Part shown: one piece after another, positions 13,279-34,969 of the stretch
Position numbering within the stretch: the first letter of the stretch is position 1
Layout: each line of letters opens with the position of its first letter
DNA from: Chitinophaga polysaccharea
Lineage (GTDB): Bacteria; Bacteroidota; Bacteroidia; Chitinophagales; Chitinophagaceae
Direction: 5' to 3'
Length of the DNA: 64,000 nucleotides
Assembly: GCF_007829335.1 (NCBI RefSeq)
Contig: NZ_VIWO01000001.1
Span: 1,612,001 to 1,676,000, forward strand
Program-made: the position numbers and the translations under genes
Notes under the pieces: model-generated
What the model saw: only the letters and a program-made list of their open reading frames with translations
What the model was told of the DNA's origin: nothing
Databases searched by the model: none

Positions 13279-13295
13279 TCATAGTAGATACGCAT

Positions 13296-13336
13296 AAAAA
13301 ACAAATGCCGGAACCCAGTTCCGGCATTTGTTTTTT
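13296..13336. terminator. Bidirectional terminator
   Basis: AAAAAACAAATGCCGGAAC and its exact reverse complement form a 19-bp stem around CCA. It serves the convergent ThiF-like and LD-carboxypeptidase genes. Confidence 0.93.
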
Positions 13337-13354
13337 ATGCTGTTGTAAGGCGGA

Positions 13355-30856: not shown

Positions 30857-30887
30857 TTTGTATTTCTTAATATTCGCCTTAATTTTG
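30857..30887 (+). promoter_or_regulatory. Bacteroidota-type promoter of purA
   Basis: TTTG (30857-30860), 19 bp and TAATTTTG (30880-30887) give a full -33/-7 match with the same spacing as the atpD and nuoA promoters. Confidence 0.8.
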
Positions 30888-30932: not shown

Positions 30933-32204
30933 ATGGTAGACGTTTTGTTAGGCCTGCAATGGGGCGACGAAGGCAAGGGTAAAATTGTGGACTATTTTGC
31001 CGGCAGGTACGACGTGATTGCCCGTTTCCAGGGTGGCCCGAACGCTGGTCACACGTTATATGTAAACGGACAGAAAGTAGTATTACGCACCATTCCATCC
31101 GGTGTATTCCACGATAAGACCGTGAACCTTATCGGTAACGGGGTAGTACTGGATCCCGTAGCTTTCAAAAAGGAAAGCGAAGATATCGCAGCACTGGGCG
31201 TAGATCTGACAAAAAATCTGTTTATAGCAGAAAAAACCCATATCATCGTTCCTACGCATCGCGCGCTGGATAAAGCATCTGAAATTGCAAAAGGCAACGA
31301 TAAAATCGGCTCTACCCTGAAAGGGATCGGCCCTGCTTATATGGATAAAACCGGCAGAAACGGTTTGCGTGTAGGAGACGTGTTGTCGCCTAATTTTAAA
31401 AGCCTGTATGAGAGCCTGAAGCAGAAACACCTGCAGCTCTTGTCTCATTACGATATTACAGATCTCACTGCAGATATTGCCGCCTGGGAAGCAGAATTCT
31501 TTGAAGCGATTCCTTTCCTGAAAAAGATGAACGTGGTAAGTGGTGAATATTTCCTGAATGAACAACTGAAAGCCGGTAAAAAAGTATTGGCCGAAGGAGC
31601 TCAGGGAAGTATGCTGGACGTAGATTTCGGTACCTATCCGTTTGTTACTTCTTCCAACACCATTTCTGCGGGTGTATGTACCGGTTTGGGTATTGCTCCG
31701 CGCTGGATCAAAGAAGTAATTGGCGTTACCAAAGCTTATTGTACCCGCGTGGGTAGCGGACCTTTCCCTACTGAGCTGGACAATGAAGTGGGTGAACACC
31801 TGCGTAGCGCCGGTCATGAATTTGGCGCCGTTACCGGCCGTTCCCGCCGCTGTGGCTGGATTGACCTGGTTGCACTGAACTATACCTGCATGCTGAGTGG
31901 CGTAACGCAACTGGTAATGACCAAAAGCGATGTACTGGACGAATTTGATGAAGTATTGGCCTGTACAGCTTATGAGATCGACGGTCAGCAAACAAAACAA
32001 CTGCCTTTCCAGTTAAACGGTCTGGACATTAAACCAGTATGGGAAACCTTTAAAGGCTGGAGTGATAAGACGTCTACTTGTCAGCAATTCAACGAGTTAC
32101 CGACCGAGATGAAAGCGTTTGTTTCATCTGTGGAGAATTACCTGGGCGTTCCCGTGAAATACGTTTCCAACGGACCTGGGCGCGATCAGATCCTTGAAAA
32201 GTAG
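30933..32204 (+). CDS. purA: Adenylosuccinate synthetase
   Basis: PurA makes adenylosuccinate from IMP, aspartate and GTP, the first committed step to AMP. The 423-residue product has LQWGDEGKGKIVD with catalytic Asp12, QGGPNAGHTLYV with the catalytic His, GSTLKGIGPAYMDKTGRNGL (the IMP and GTP site), AEGAQGSMLDVDFGTYPFVT and the GRSRRCGWIDLVAL signature. The full N-terminus is present from ATG 30933. It has its own promoter. Confidence 0.97.
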   Translation: MVDVLLGLQWGDEGKGKIVDYFAGRYDVIARFQGGPNAGHTLYVNGQKVVLRTIPSGVFHDKTVNLIGNGVVLDPVAFKKESEDIAALGVDLTKNLFIAEKTHIIVPTHRALDKASEIAKGNDKIGSTLKGIGPAYMDKTGRNGLRVGDVLSPNFKSLYESLKQKHLQLLSHYDITDLTADIAAWEAEFFEAIPFLKKMNVVSGEYFLNEQLKAGKKVLAEGAQGSMLDVDFGTYPFVTSSNTISAGVCTGLGIAPRWIKEVIGVTKAYCTRVGSGPFPTELDNEVGEHLRSAGHEFGAVTGRSRRCGWIDLVALNYTCMLSGVTQLVMTKSDVLDEFDEVLACTAYEIDGQQTKQLPFQLNGLDIKPVWETFKGWSDKTSTCQQFNELPTEMKAFVSSVENYLGVPVKYVSNGPGRDQILEK

Positions 32205-32297
32205 AAGGAAAAAAGTAAGGAAAAAAAACAGCAAAAAAAATTTGGCGAATAAAAAAAACTATTAAAACTTTACGGCAAAGAAATAAGGCAACCTATT

Positions 32298-32744
32298 ATG
32301 AAATCAAAATCTGATAAAGAGAAAGAGACCAAAAAAACTACTTCTCCTAAGACTGAAAAAGACGCTCCTAAAGCTGCGGCCAAGCCTAAGAAAGAGGTGG
32401 ATGAAGATGAAGAGGAGGAAGATGATGAAGATGTGAAACCTTCAAAATCTGCCGCTAAGAAATCAGATAAGTCTGCATCAAAATCCAAACGTAAAGATGA
32501 CGATGAGGAGGATGATGATGACGATGATATGGACGACATGGACGATGCTTGGGAAAAAGGAGAAGATGATGATTATGATCCCGATTTTGAAGAATTTGAC
32601 ATGCCTAAGTCAAAGGGTAAACGCGGTCGTCCTGCCGGCGGCGGTAAGAAAACCGATGACGACGACGACCTGGGCATAGATGATGAATTCAAGGATATGG
32701 ATCTGTTTAACGATCGTTTTGATGATGAGGATGATGATTTTTAA
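32298..32744 (+). CDS. Highly charged acidic protein with an AT-hook-like motif
   Basis: The 148-residue product is almost all Lys, Asp, Glu, Ser, Ala and Pro. A basic/mixed N-terminal part (about residues 1-35, Lys/Thr/Pro/Ala-rich) is followed by acidic blocks (EVDEDEEEEDDEDV; DDDEEDDDDDDMDDMDD), then KGKRGRPAGGGKK (about 107-119), whose RGRP core is that of an AT-hook, and an acidic C-terminus ending FDDEDDDF. No globular domain is expected. Similar low-complexity proteins exist in Bacteroidota but I know of no tested function. It lies between purA and pabB, with no terminator between purA and it. Confidence 0.75.
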   Translation: MKSKSDKEKETKKTTSPKTEKDAPKAAAKPKKEVDEDEEEEDDEDVKPSKSAAKKSDKSASKSKRKDDDEEDDDDDDMDDMDDAWEKGEDDDYDPDFEEFDMPKSKGKRGRPAGGGKKTDDDDDLGIDDEFKDMDLFNDRFDDEDDDF

Positions 32745-32807
32745 GCTTTAAAACACGATTGTTATCAGGATATTCCACACCTTCCCGGTTGATAATCAGA
32801 AAATATT

Positions 32808-32858
32808 TAAGCAACAAATGTTGAATTGGGGAAACCAGTTCAACATTTGTTGTTTTTT
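32808..32858 (+). promoter_or_regulatory. Terminator-like hairpin containing the pabB start codon
   Basis: CAACAAATGTTGAA (32812-32825) and TTCAACATTTGTTG (32839-32852) are perfect 14-bp arms; four more pairs extend inward to a GGAAA loop. Six T follow (32853-32858). The ATG at 32818 lies in the left arm. This is a complete intrinsic-terminator architecture within the pabB reading frame. Confidence 0.75.
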
Positions 32859-34062
32859 GGACAATAATAATTACGATTCTCCCTGGCACGAATATGACGC
32901 CGTTCTGGCTGCAGATGCCCTGCAAATCCTTGAAGTAAACGCAGGCAACGCCTTCCCCGCTTTACAGGCCTTCCATGACCGGCACGCCGACTGGCTCTTC
33001 GGTCACCTGGCATATGATCTTAAAAATGAAACAGCCCCCGGATTACAATCCGCCAATACCGATGGTATTGGCTTCCCGGATATGTGCTTTTTTCAGCCAC
33101 GTATTATCATTCAATTACAACAACAACAGGTGCATATTGGCGGCATCCAACTCCATGAAACAGAGGCCCGCGCTATATATGACGACTGTTTACGTATGCC
33201 CGTTCACGTAACACCCGTTACCACGGAGCCGGTGCCAGCGCTGCAAAGCCGCCTGGATCACCGCAGCTATATTACCGCGGTAGAGGATATCCGCCAGCAT
33301 ATTTTGAAGGGAGATTGTTATGAAATCAATTTCTGCCGGGAAAATTATATGACTGGTGTCAACGTAAATCCCACAGCGTTATTCACAAAGTTGAATAACC
33401 TTTCGCCAGCACCCTTTGCTGCCTATTATCGACTGTACGATCGCTACCTGGCCTGTTCCAGCCCGGAACGCTTCCTGCAGAAAAAAGGGAACACGGTTAT
33501 TTCACAGCCCATCAAAGGAACCAGCCGTAAAGATGCAGATCCGGTTACCGACCAGCGGTTGCAACAACAATTACTGCAAAATCCAAAAGAGAGAGCCGAA
33601 AATGTAATGGTGGTAGACCTGGTACGCAACGACTTGTCGCATACTGCTGTACAGGGTTCTGTAGAGGTAACCGAGTTGTTTGGAATTTATTCTTTTGCCC
33701 ATGTACACCACATGATTTCCACCGTATCGGCTCAATTGCCGCCACAGCTGCCGTTTACAGCGGTGCTCCGCACTACGTTCCCGATGGGCTCCATGACAGG
33801 CGCACCCAAAATCAGGGTGATGCAGTTGATTGAACAATATGAGCAAACCCGCCGTGGGCTTTATTCCGGAGCAGTAGGATATATTACGCCGGAAGGCGAT
33901 TTCGATTTCAATGTAGTGATCCGTAGTATGCTTTATAATGCGACAAGCCAATACCTGTCTTTCCAAACCGGTTCTGCTATTACCTTCTACAGTGATCCGG
34001 AAAAAGAATGGGAGGAATGCCTGCTGAAAGCAGCTGCCATGGAAAAAACCATTATTGGCTAA
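32818..34062 (+). CDS. pabB: Aminodeoxychorismate synthase component I (PabB/TrpE family)
   Basis: The enzyme converts chorismate to 4-amino-4-deoxychorismate for folate synthesis. From ATG 32818 the product has 414 residues, with the chorismate-binding domain from about residue 140: EDIRQHILKGDCYEINFCRE, SSPERFLQKKGNTVISQPIK, GTSRKDADP, ERAENVMVVDLVRNDLSHTA, TTFPMGSMTGAPKIRVMQLI and RRGLYSGAVGYITPEGDFDF. The PIKGTSRK form is typical of PabB rather than TrpE. The frame stays open upstream to 32752 and reads IRIFHTFPVDNQKIFKQQ, which looks like the normal PabB N-terminus but has no ATG, GTG or TTG. Its 3' end overlaps the convergent epimerase gene by 11 bp. Confidence 0.92.
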   Translation: MLNWGNQFNICCFLDNNNYDSPWHEYDAVLAADALQILEVNAGNAFPALQAFHDRHADWLFGHLAYDLKNETAPGLQSANTDGIGFPDMCFFQPRIIIQLQQQQVHIGGIQLHETEARAIYDDCLRMPVHVTPVTTEPVPALQSRLDHRSYITAVEDIRQHILKGDCYEINFCRENYMTGVNVNPTALFTKLNNLSPAPFAAYYRLYDRYLACSSPERFLQKKGNTVISQPIKGTSRKDADPVTDQRLQQQLLQNPKERAENVMVVDLVRNDLSHTAVQGSVEVTELFGIYSFAHVHHMISTVSAQLPPQLPFTAVLRTTFPMGSMTGAPKIRVMQLIEQYEQTRRGLYSGAVGYITPEGDFDFNVVIRSMLYNATSQYLSFQTGSAITFYSDPEKEWEECLLKAAAMEKTIIG

Positions 34063-34969
34063 ACAGCTGCTCCATCGCTTCATCGATGGTAGGATACGAA
34101 AACTGGAACCCCGTCTGTTGTATTTTAGCCGGAGATGCCTGCATACTCTTTAATACTTCCACACTCATTTCACCTAATGCCAGCTTCAATACTGCCGTTG
34201 GTACATAAGTGGTCATAAAGCTGCGGCCCTTGGCTATCCGGGCCATGCTAAGGATCAGTTCCCGGTTGGAAACAGGATGAGGACTTACCGCATTATAAAT
34301 GCCTTCCAGTTTATCATTAACGATAGCACTGAAATAAAGTCTTACCAGGTCATGAATATGTATCCAGGAAATAAACTGGTCGCCAGAACCCAATATGGTG
34401 GCAAATCCAAAGCGCAGTGGCTTGTAAAACTCTTTAAGGGCGCCGCCTTCCCTGCTCAATACGATCCCGGTACGTAAAATAACCAGTTTCTTTCCCAGCG
34501 TAGTAACCTTAGCAATGCTTTGTTCCCAGGCCTGCGTAGTGCTGCCAAGATAGTCGGTGGCCGGCGGGTCGGTTTCTGTGAAAACATGACCTGTAAAATC
34601 ACCATAGTAGCCGGTGGCGGAGGCGCTGATTACTTTCTTTACTTTATTGGGAATGGTTTGTAGTGCGGTATAGATGAGTGCACTGCTTTGGGTGCGACTA
34701 TCAATAATCTCCTGTTTACGTGCCGCTGTCCAGCGCCTGGCGCCTACATTGGCTCCTGCCAGGTGTACAATATAATCAGCCTGTTGGATGGCGTCTTTAT
34801 CTATCGTTTGTGCTTCCAGGTTCCAATGGGCATATGTTACCGCCTTATTGCCGCCGTTTTCCGGGCGCCTGCTCAATATAATTACCTTGTAGCCGCGCTC
34901 CAGCAACAATTGGGTCAATGCCGTTCCTATAAGTCCTGTTCCACCTGTTATAATGACGCTTTCCATCAA
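34052..34969 (-). CDS. TIGR01777 family epimerase (SDR superfamily)
   Basis: The 305-residue product is an extended short-chain dehydrogenase/reductase. The cofactor loop is VIITGGTGLIGTALTQLL, followed by YIVHLAGANVGARRWTAARK, VISASATGYYGDFTGHVFTE and the C-terminal domain (LALGEMSVEVLKSMQASPAK) that defines TIGR01777 (DUF1731). The substrate is not known; the family includes the plant and bacterial YfcH/SDR39U1 proteins. It is convergent with pabB, with overlapping 3' ends and no space for a separate terminator. Confidence 0.92.
   Translation of the reverse strand: MMESVIITGGTGLIGTALTQLLLERGYKVIILSRRPENGGNKAVTYAHWNLEAQTIDKDAIQQADYIVHLAGANVGARRWTAARKQEIIDSRTQSSALIYTALQTIPNKVKKVISASATGYYGDFTGHVFTETDPPATDYLGSTTQAWEQSIAKVTTLGKKLVILRTGIVLSREGGALKEFYKPLRFGFATILGSGDQFISWIHIHDLVRLYFSAIVNDKLEGIYNAVSPHPVSNRELILSMARIAKGRSFMTTYVPTAVLKLALGEMSVEVLKSMQASPAKIQQTGFQFSYPTIDEAMEQLFSQ

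Follow-up and report, generated by a model that had tools for sequence, protein, structure and literature searches.

A conserved terminator-like hairpin within the first codons of pabB suggests that one operon ends within the coding sequence of the gene after it in Chitinophagaceae

In the window, i.e. the whole 64,000 nt-long stretch of the 7.6 Mb genome of Chitinophaga polysaccharea analysed here, pabB contains within its first codons a long hairpin that ends in a T run. The hairpin has the form of the ordinary terminators of this genome, and its base changes across the family Chitinophagaceae indicate that it is under selection as RNA. We consider it probable that it is a leaky intrinsic terminator of the purA-acidic gene transcript, embedded in codons 16-32 of pabB, with a weak start codon that would keep ribosomes mostly off it. 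This suggests that the coding sequence of a gene has taken up the end of the operon before it.

Gene order and flanking genes

The genes relA/spoT, purA, the acidic ORF and pabB stand in this order, and a convergent epimerase-family gene comes next (Table 1). The latter, at 34052-34969, encodes a TIGR01777-family oxidoreductase and its end overlaps the pabB end by 11 bases. PabB was recognised by PF00425 with 280.5 bits (cutoff 27); the best NCBIfam match of the protein started from the ATG was TIGR00553, with 306.6 bits, which is below its cutoff of 328.4. The PabB of the window is 95% identical to the C. eiseniae protein. For the acidic 148-aa protein no family match was found in Pfam or NCBIfam. 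It is rich in lysine and aspartate, and its C-terminus is usually an aspartate/glutamate run with a final F or Y.

The promoter-like site upstream of purA fits a Bacteroidota-type pattern, the consensus of which is given in PMC7366714. The pattern had 7 matches in the 64 kb, on both strands, vs 2.6 expected by chance, and no further + strand match was present between the site upstream of purA and the pabB end.

Table 1. Features of the purA-pabB region (positions in the window) and hairpin loci of the sister family
Feature	Position	Strand	Remarks
Promoter-like site, Bacteroidota type (TTTG ... TAATTTTG)	30857..30887	+	45 bases upstream of purA
purA, adenylosuccinate synthase	30933..32204	+	NF002223, 551.9 bits, cutoff 402
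Acidic 148-aa protein gene	32298..32744	+	directly upstream of pabB; from the ORF list
pabB with proposed start ATC	32764..34062	+	in-frame TAA at 32749
Hairpin left arm	32809..32829	+	pabB codons 16-22
ATG where the ORF list opens pabB	32818..32820	+	probably internal codon (residue 19 when the protein is extended); in left arm
Hairpin loop GGAAA	32830..32834	+	variable across relatives
Hairpin right arm	32835..32855	+	pabB codons 24-31
Six-T run, presumed termination tract	32853..32858	+	three T paired, three free
Sister-family hairpin loci	about -73..-38 before aligned codon		L189, L276, L277, L298, L299, L301

Structure of the hairpin

The preliminary description of this DNA, made from its letters, had reported a hairpin with a GGAAA loop and six T in the 5' part of pabB, and the predicted fold confirmed it. 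Precisely, the minimum free energy of 32790-32870 was -29.1 kcal/mol, vs -10.7 kcal/mol (sd 2.4) in 200 dinucleotide shuffles (z = -7.7), none of which was as good (0/200). The arms had been given as perfect over 14 bp, or 18 bp with the inner pairs; they are indeed perfect, but the stem is longer, since 32809-32829 and 32835-32855 form 21 unbroken pairs, 19 Watson-Crick and two G-U. The first three T of the run 32853-32858 pair with bases 32811-32809. Only six of the 21 pairs are G-C, whereas the stem of an intrinsic terminator is expected to be G+C-rich; several intergenic hairpins of the same genome also have 3 to 6. The loop gains one codon in L119 and L241 (Lacibacter cauensis) with the stem still intact, and these two loci are scored as misses in the fixed register used below.

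The stem begins 65 bases past the last base of the stop codon of the acidic gene, on the same strand. A terminator scan returned no other + strand terminator-like site from the purA start to the pabB end, as had been claimed for the sequence after the acidic gene. The same scan also omitted the pabB hairpin itself, probably because the stem consumes half of the T run. A search of Rfam over 32200-33400 gave 7 matches at E ≤5, none of which reached the gathering score; the two matches over the hairpin were to miRNA models, with 20-22 bits vs a cutoff of 70.

Comparison with the terminators of the genome

We surveyed 400 kb of the same genome (269 ORFs), considering as an ORF any frame of at least 150 aa and as inside any position at least 30 bases from the ORF ends; both strands were counted and palindromic terminators were counted twice. 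Perfect hairpins with a T-rich end and 14 or more pairs numbered 44: 29 were ≤150 nt after a sense stop, 14 were elsewhere between ORFs, 1 was antisense and 0 were inside a sense ORF, bearing in mind that the pabB hairpin itself was classed as intergenic because of the late ATG and that similar mis-classed hairpins could hide among the 14. Shorter hairpins with a T-rich end (9-13 pairs) were found 16 times inside sense ORFs in the same 400 kb. The plan of the pabB hairpin, whose left arm carries an A tract and whose right arm a T tract, is that of the terminator 13292-13340. This terminator, very strong and located between genes, even contains the same CAAATG/CATTTG segment.

A hairpin for RNA processing or for 3'-end protection, where a nuclease cut would separate the purA-acidic mRNA from pabB and the purA-acidic mRNA would be stabilised, agrees with the long double-stranded RNA conserved at this gene boundary; such a function leaves the T-rich end and the terminator form unexplained, and we regard it as quite improbable.

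Conservation of pairing in Chitinophagaceae

The pairing was compared in 69 Chitinophagaceae genera, with one sequence for each genus and 21 pairs for each sequence, that is 1449 cells. Conservation of pairing in relatives had been set beforehand as a check, and the outcome was clear: paired stem cells were 92.1% of the 1449, vs 83.8% (sd 0.55, max 85.5%) in 1000 swaps of the arms between genera. Slid registers paired in 32-52% of cells, and palindromic control frames farther down the gene in a mean of 38% (max 48%). At least two Watson-Crick types, each in at least two genera, were present at 12 of the 21 pairs. The register sets third codon positions opposite each other, and in many cases a change is silent in both arms; in other cases compensation altered the protein on both arms, ATG~CAT being replaced by GTG~CAC in 10 genera and by CTG~CAG in 2.

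In these 69 genera there were 22 A-C mismatches vs about 75 in the swaps (29%), and 153 G-U pairs vs 208 (74%), part of the raw difference between 153 and 22 being due to base composition. G-U is thus tolerated and A-C purged, which points to sense-strand RNA. This bears on a DNA-level palindrome, e.g. an operator for a DNA-binding protein, to which a near-perfect inverted repeat would be well suited. In DNA, G-T and A-C are equally bad, yet A-C was reduced far more than G-U with respect to the swap expectation, and the bases change in step instead of being fixed. For these reasons we disfavoured the operator, which we consider very improbable.

As for single sequences, at least 11 of 13 core pairs are kept in 78/78 examined genomes of the genus Chitinophaga (78 of 79 genomes, G064 being left out with its pabB match broken by stops) and in 67 of the 69 family genera, the misses being L138 (10) and L155 (7), with L124 and L164 unanchored and outside the pairing counts (on visual inspection, the hairpin is present in L124, and L164 has a weak one of a different kind). 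The same holds for 72 of the 79 anchored named loci, a count that leaves out the unanchored L269 and is not to be summed with the other sets, as the named loci partly duplicate other sampled genomes (e.g. L195 = G014). Keepers include Niastella, Paraflavitalea, Pinibacter, Taibaiella, Terrimonas, Flavihumibacter, Flavisolibacter and Ferruginibacter, and one keeper, Pedobacter L248, is from another family. The pabB of this Pedobacter has a shorter, partial stem, a remnant or a chance occurrence, and no acidic gene upstream. A free search for hairpins of ≤ -14 kcal/mol preceding a T-rich stretch was successful in 68 of the 71 family genera.

Codon choice was evaluated in 101 sequences, which include repeats, some Chitinophaga and a few non-family loci such as L194 and L248. 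TTC was used for 90/97 Phe at codon +21, which is paired, vs 32% in the rest of the gene. The T run is only mildly favoured, with TTT for 58/72 Phe at +36 (68% in the gene body) and TTA/TTG for 56/97 Leu at +39 (37% in the gene body), and it is interrupted in many relatives (TTTATTGG, TTTCCTGG). Codon bias and covariation led us to reject the hairpin as a chance by-product of the amino-acid sequence.

Start of pabB

According to the preliminary description, the left arm contains the ATG at 32818 and the T run codes for part of PabB, and both statements are correct. The same ATG had also been taken as the pabB start; conserved codons, a confident structure model and solved relatives argue instead that it is internal, at about codon 19, so that ribosomes would reach the hairpin after about 15 codons. 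The start is probably about 18 codons upstream, at ATC 32764. In the ORF list pabB opens at ATG 32818, since the sequence from the in-frame TAA at 32749 up to this codon has no ATG, GTG or TTG.

The frame upstream of ATG 32818 is open and resembles the PabB N-terminus of other genera, which mostly have GTG or TTG at about -57 (positions are counted from the codon aligned with ATG 32818). In the in-frame range -90..-36, 60 of the 78 Chitinophaga genomes have no ATG, GTG or TTG, 18 have GTG or TTG, and 0 have ATG. Codon -54 is ATC or ATT in 62/78 of these genomes (ATC in 61 of the 62); its neighbour -57 is variable, and codon -60 is a stop in three genomes. Between -51 and -13 the synonymous share of codon differences was 35% in the pabB frame (4843/13727) vs 17-18% in the other two frames (2341/13222 and 2256/13451), the counts being pairwise and ignoring kinship.

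A structure model of the protein read from ATC 32764 had a pLDDT of 95-98 at residues 1-30, where residues 3-8 form the first strand and residues 12-23 the first helix. Residues 3-431 of the model align with residues 2-426 of 3h9m, the solved PabB of Cytophaga hutchinsonii (Z 51, rmsd 1.9, 394 aligned), and the sequence alignment puts query residue 16 on chain residue 16. According to the model, a start at ATG 32818 would remove this strand and about half of this helix. Conservation and N-terminus homology together suggest initiation at AUC; if AUC is the start, as is likely, start-codon rules misplace the pabB start in most genomes of the genus Chitinophaga.

Weak starts accompany the hairpin in the rest of the family too. 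Among the 82 other (non-Chitinophaga) family loci with the hairpin, the start codon in reach is GTG/TTG in 58, ATG in 19 and neither in 5. ATG is in reach in 0/78 Chitinophaga genomes vs 13 of 18 order-level loci outside the family, a comparison that ignores kinship and in which an ATG within the scanned range need not be the true start; seven unanchored order-level loci are absent from these counts and from the acidic-gene context counts given below. The pabB of L118, L121, L150, L235, L249, L262 and L270 (L118 and L249 being apparently one genome) has a CTG at -51 or -42 and no ATG, GTG or TTG in reach. We considered such CTG-only loci in Chitinophagaceae as another sign of very weak starts.

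This company of weak starts would also be expected of a dedicated, regulated attenuator of pabB, in which a signal (translation state, folate or a protein) would set termination or readthrough and the purA side would be incidental; moreover, the element is kept over the family and is located in pabB. Nevertheless, the RNAalifold consensus of -66..-13, calculated on 46 distinct sequences from 62 Chitinophaga genomes, was empty (0.0), so that an antiterminator-type switch, lacking a conserved alternative fold, is unsupported. No Rfam match was at cutoff, and plain leakage accounts for the data without any signal. Such an attenuator is a tentative possibility, somewhat doubtful in our opinion. 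An upstream antiterminator or riboswitch was rejected: the sequence of the window alone does fold a stem over the proposed start, but this stem is absent from the 46-sequence consensus. The preliminary description had put forward both an attenuator and a purA-side terminator tolerated by pabB. We favour the latter as the origin of the element, the former being a possible consequence only.

The gene boundary and other families

The acidic gene, which itself sits behind purA, is directly upstream of pabB in 78/78 genomes of the genus, in 81 of the 82 other family loci and in 70 of the 72 named loci with the hairpin. The three exceptions are L143 and L239, contigs with little upstream sequence, and L248, the Pedobacter. 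In hairpin loci the acidic stop is found from 69 nt before position -57 to 5 nt beyond it. Seven named loci miss the hairpin in the fixed register: L230, L255, L268 and L273 are without the acidic gene, and the remaining three, with the acidic gene, are L241 (intact, loop insertion), L247 (10/13) and L257 (lost). The acidic gene is kept and the hairpin absent in L155 and L257; in L257 the acidic stop lies deep within the region that normally codes for the PabB N-terminus. We rejected read-through or a frameshift leading from the acidic gene into pabB, given that the frame of one gene relative to the other is not constant across genomes.

In the seven genomes of a sister family, which belong to genera g136 and g155, the acidic gene is followed by an unrelated hairpin, at -73..-38 and with a run of seven to nine T. 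This hairpin too is in the first codons of pabB and has compensatory changes between genomes; its energy is ≤ -16 kcal/mol in 6/7 genomes and weak in G315. Some sister-family loci are the same genomes under two names (L275 = L303, L276 = L300, L277 = L302). ATG is in reach in 7/7 of these genomes, each carrying its own in-gene hairpin, and this contradicts a weak start as a general requirement for such a terminator. A third hairpin form is present in both sampled genomes of genus g128 (L193, L281). Outside the family, a hairpin of ≤ -14 kcal/mol was found in 3/9 genera with the acidic gene vs 3/21 without it, and we rejected the acidic gene as a general predictor of the hairpin there, the difference being weak.

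The differently placed hairpin of the sister family also bears on a hairpin that would control translation without termination, either by hiding ATG 32818 against a truncated PabB or by slowing early elongation. The ATG is within the stem, the true start is probably weak, and the codon aligned with ATG 32818 is, in nearly all family members, ATG, GTG or CTG, all of which agrees with such a control. A few family genera have ATA at that codon, though, and the stem is much longer than masking requires; the T-rich end, the likeness to the terminators of the genome and the sister-family hairpin are left unexplained. We consider it unlikely that the hairpin acts on translation alone.

Discussion

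According to the leaky terminator that we favour, an RNA polymerase starting before purA would reach the T run and would usually stop near 32858, and the readthrough fraction would yield pabB mRNA. With a pabB start upstream of the hairpin, the full-length pabB message must traverse it. The weak start, probably AUC here and mostly GUG or UUG in related genera, would lower translation and leave the stem free to fold, and an early-starting ribosome could melt the stem and raise readthrough, this ribosome gating being the least certain step of the mechanism. On balance, purA and the acidic protein would be abundant and PabB scarce, with pabB transcription partly gated by its own translation.

Like intrinsic (Rho-independent) terminators, the pabB hairpin is a hairpin with a U tract after a gene, and it has the same A-tract/T-tract form as the intergenic ones of this genome. 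Unlike the usual ones, it lies within the codons of the gene that follows, and compensatory changes, some of which cost protein sequence, have preserved it over the family. In E. coli, leaky intra-operon terminators are located between genes, for example between rpsU and dnaG or between rplL and rpoB. The pabB hairpin, as these terminators do, would set the upstream genes high and the downstream gene low on one transcript; here, however, little sequence separates the two genes, and the hairpin occupies codons 16-32 of the second. In ribosome-mediated attenuators of the trp type, a translating ribosome decides whether the terminator forms. The same would apply to the pabB hairpin, but with neither a leader peptide nor a conserved alternative stem, and the ribosome would translate the structural gene itself. 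The AUU start of infC is weak, seldom used for initiation, and restricts expression. The AUC start that we propose for pabB, from conservation and N-terminus homology, would resemble it.

As regards the position within a reading frame, some E. coli 3' ends map inside ORFs, and one fifth of the listed ends are predicted to be intrinsic, according to passages of PMC7815308. These ORF-internal or premature ends, which like the pabB hairpin are within reading frames, are presented there in terms of regulation or sRNA production in one species, and no family-wide covarying terminator at a gene boundary is described in these passages. Searches of open-licence PubMed Central articles (titles and abstract beginnings) did not return a description of the present element. 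Intrinsic terminators, leaky operon terminators and ORF-internal 3' ends are already known; what is new is the position within the coding sequence of the next gene, the family-wide conservation against protein sequence and the company of apparent non-AUG starts.

We also mention a bolder conjecture, to which we assign only a slim chance, in which the terminator in the N-terminal codons of pabB would be a boundary device common to the family, switched by the weak start of pabB itself (AUC in Chitinophaga). Transcription would then read out initiation capacity; the folate fed by PabB, by formylating the initiator tRNA, could tie folate synthesis to initiation, and the N-terminus of the protein would have evolved under terminator constraint.

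Terminators are normally sought between genes. In nearly 70 sampled genera a transcript apparently has its end encoded in the first 32 codons of the gene that follows, with the protein sequence giving way where this is required.
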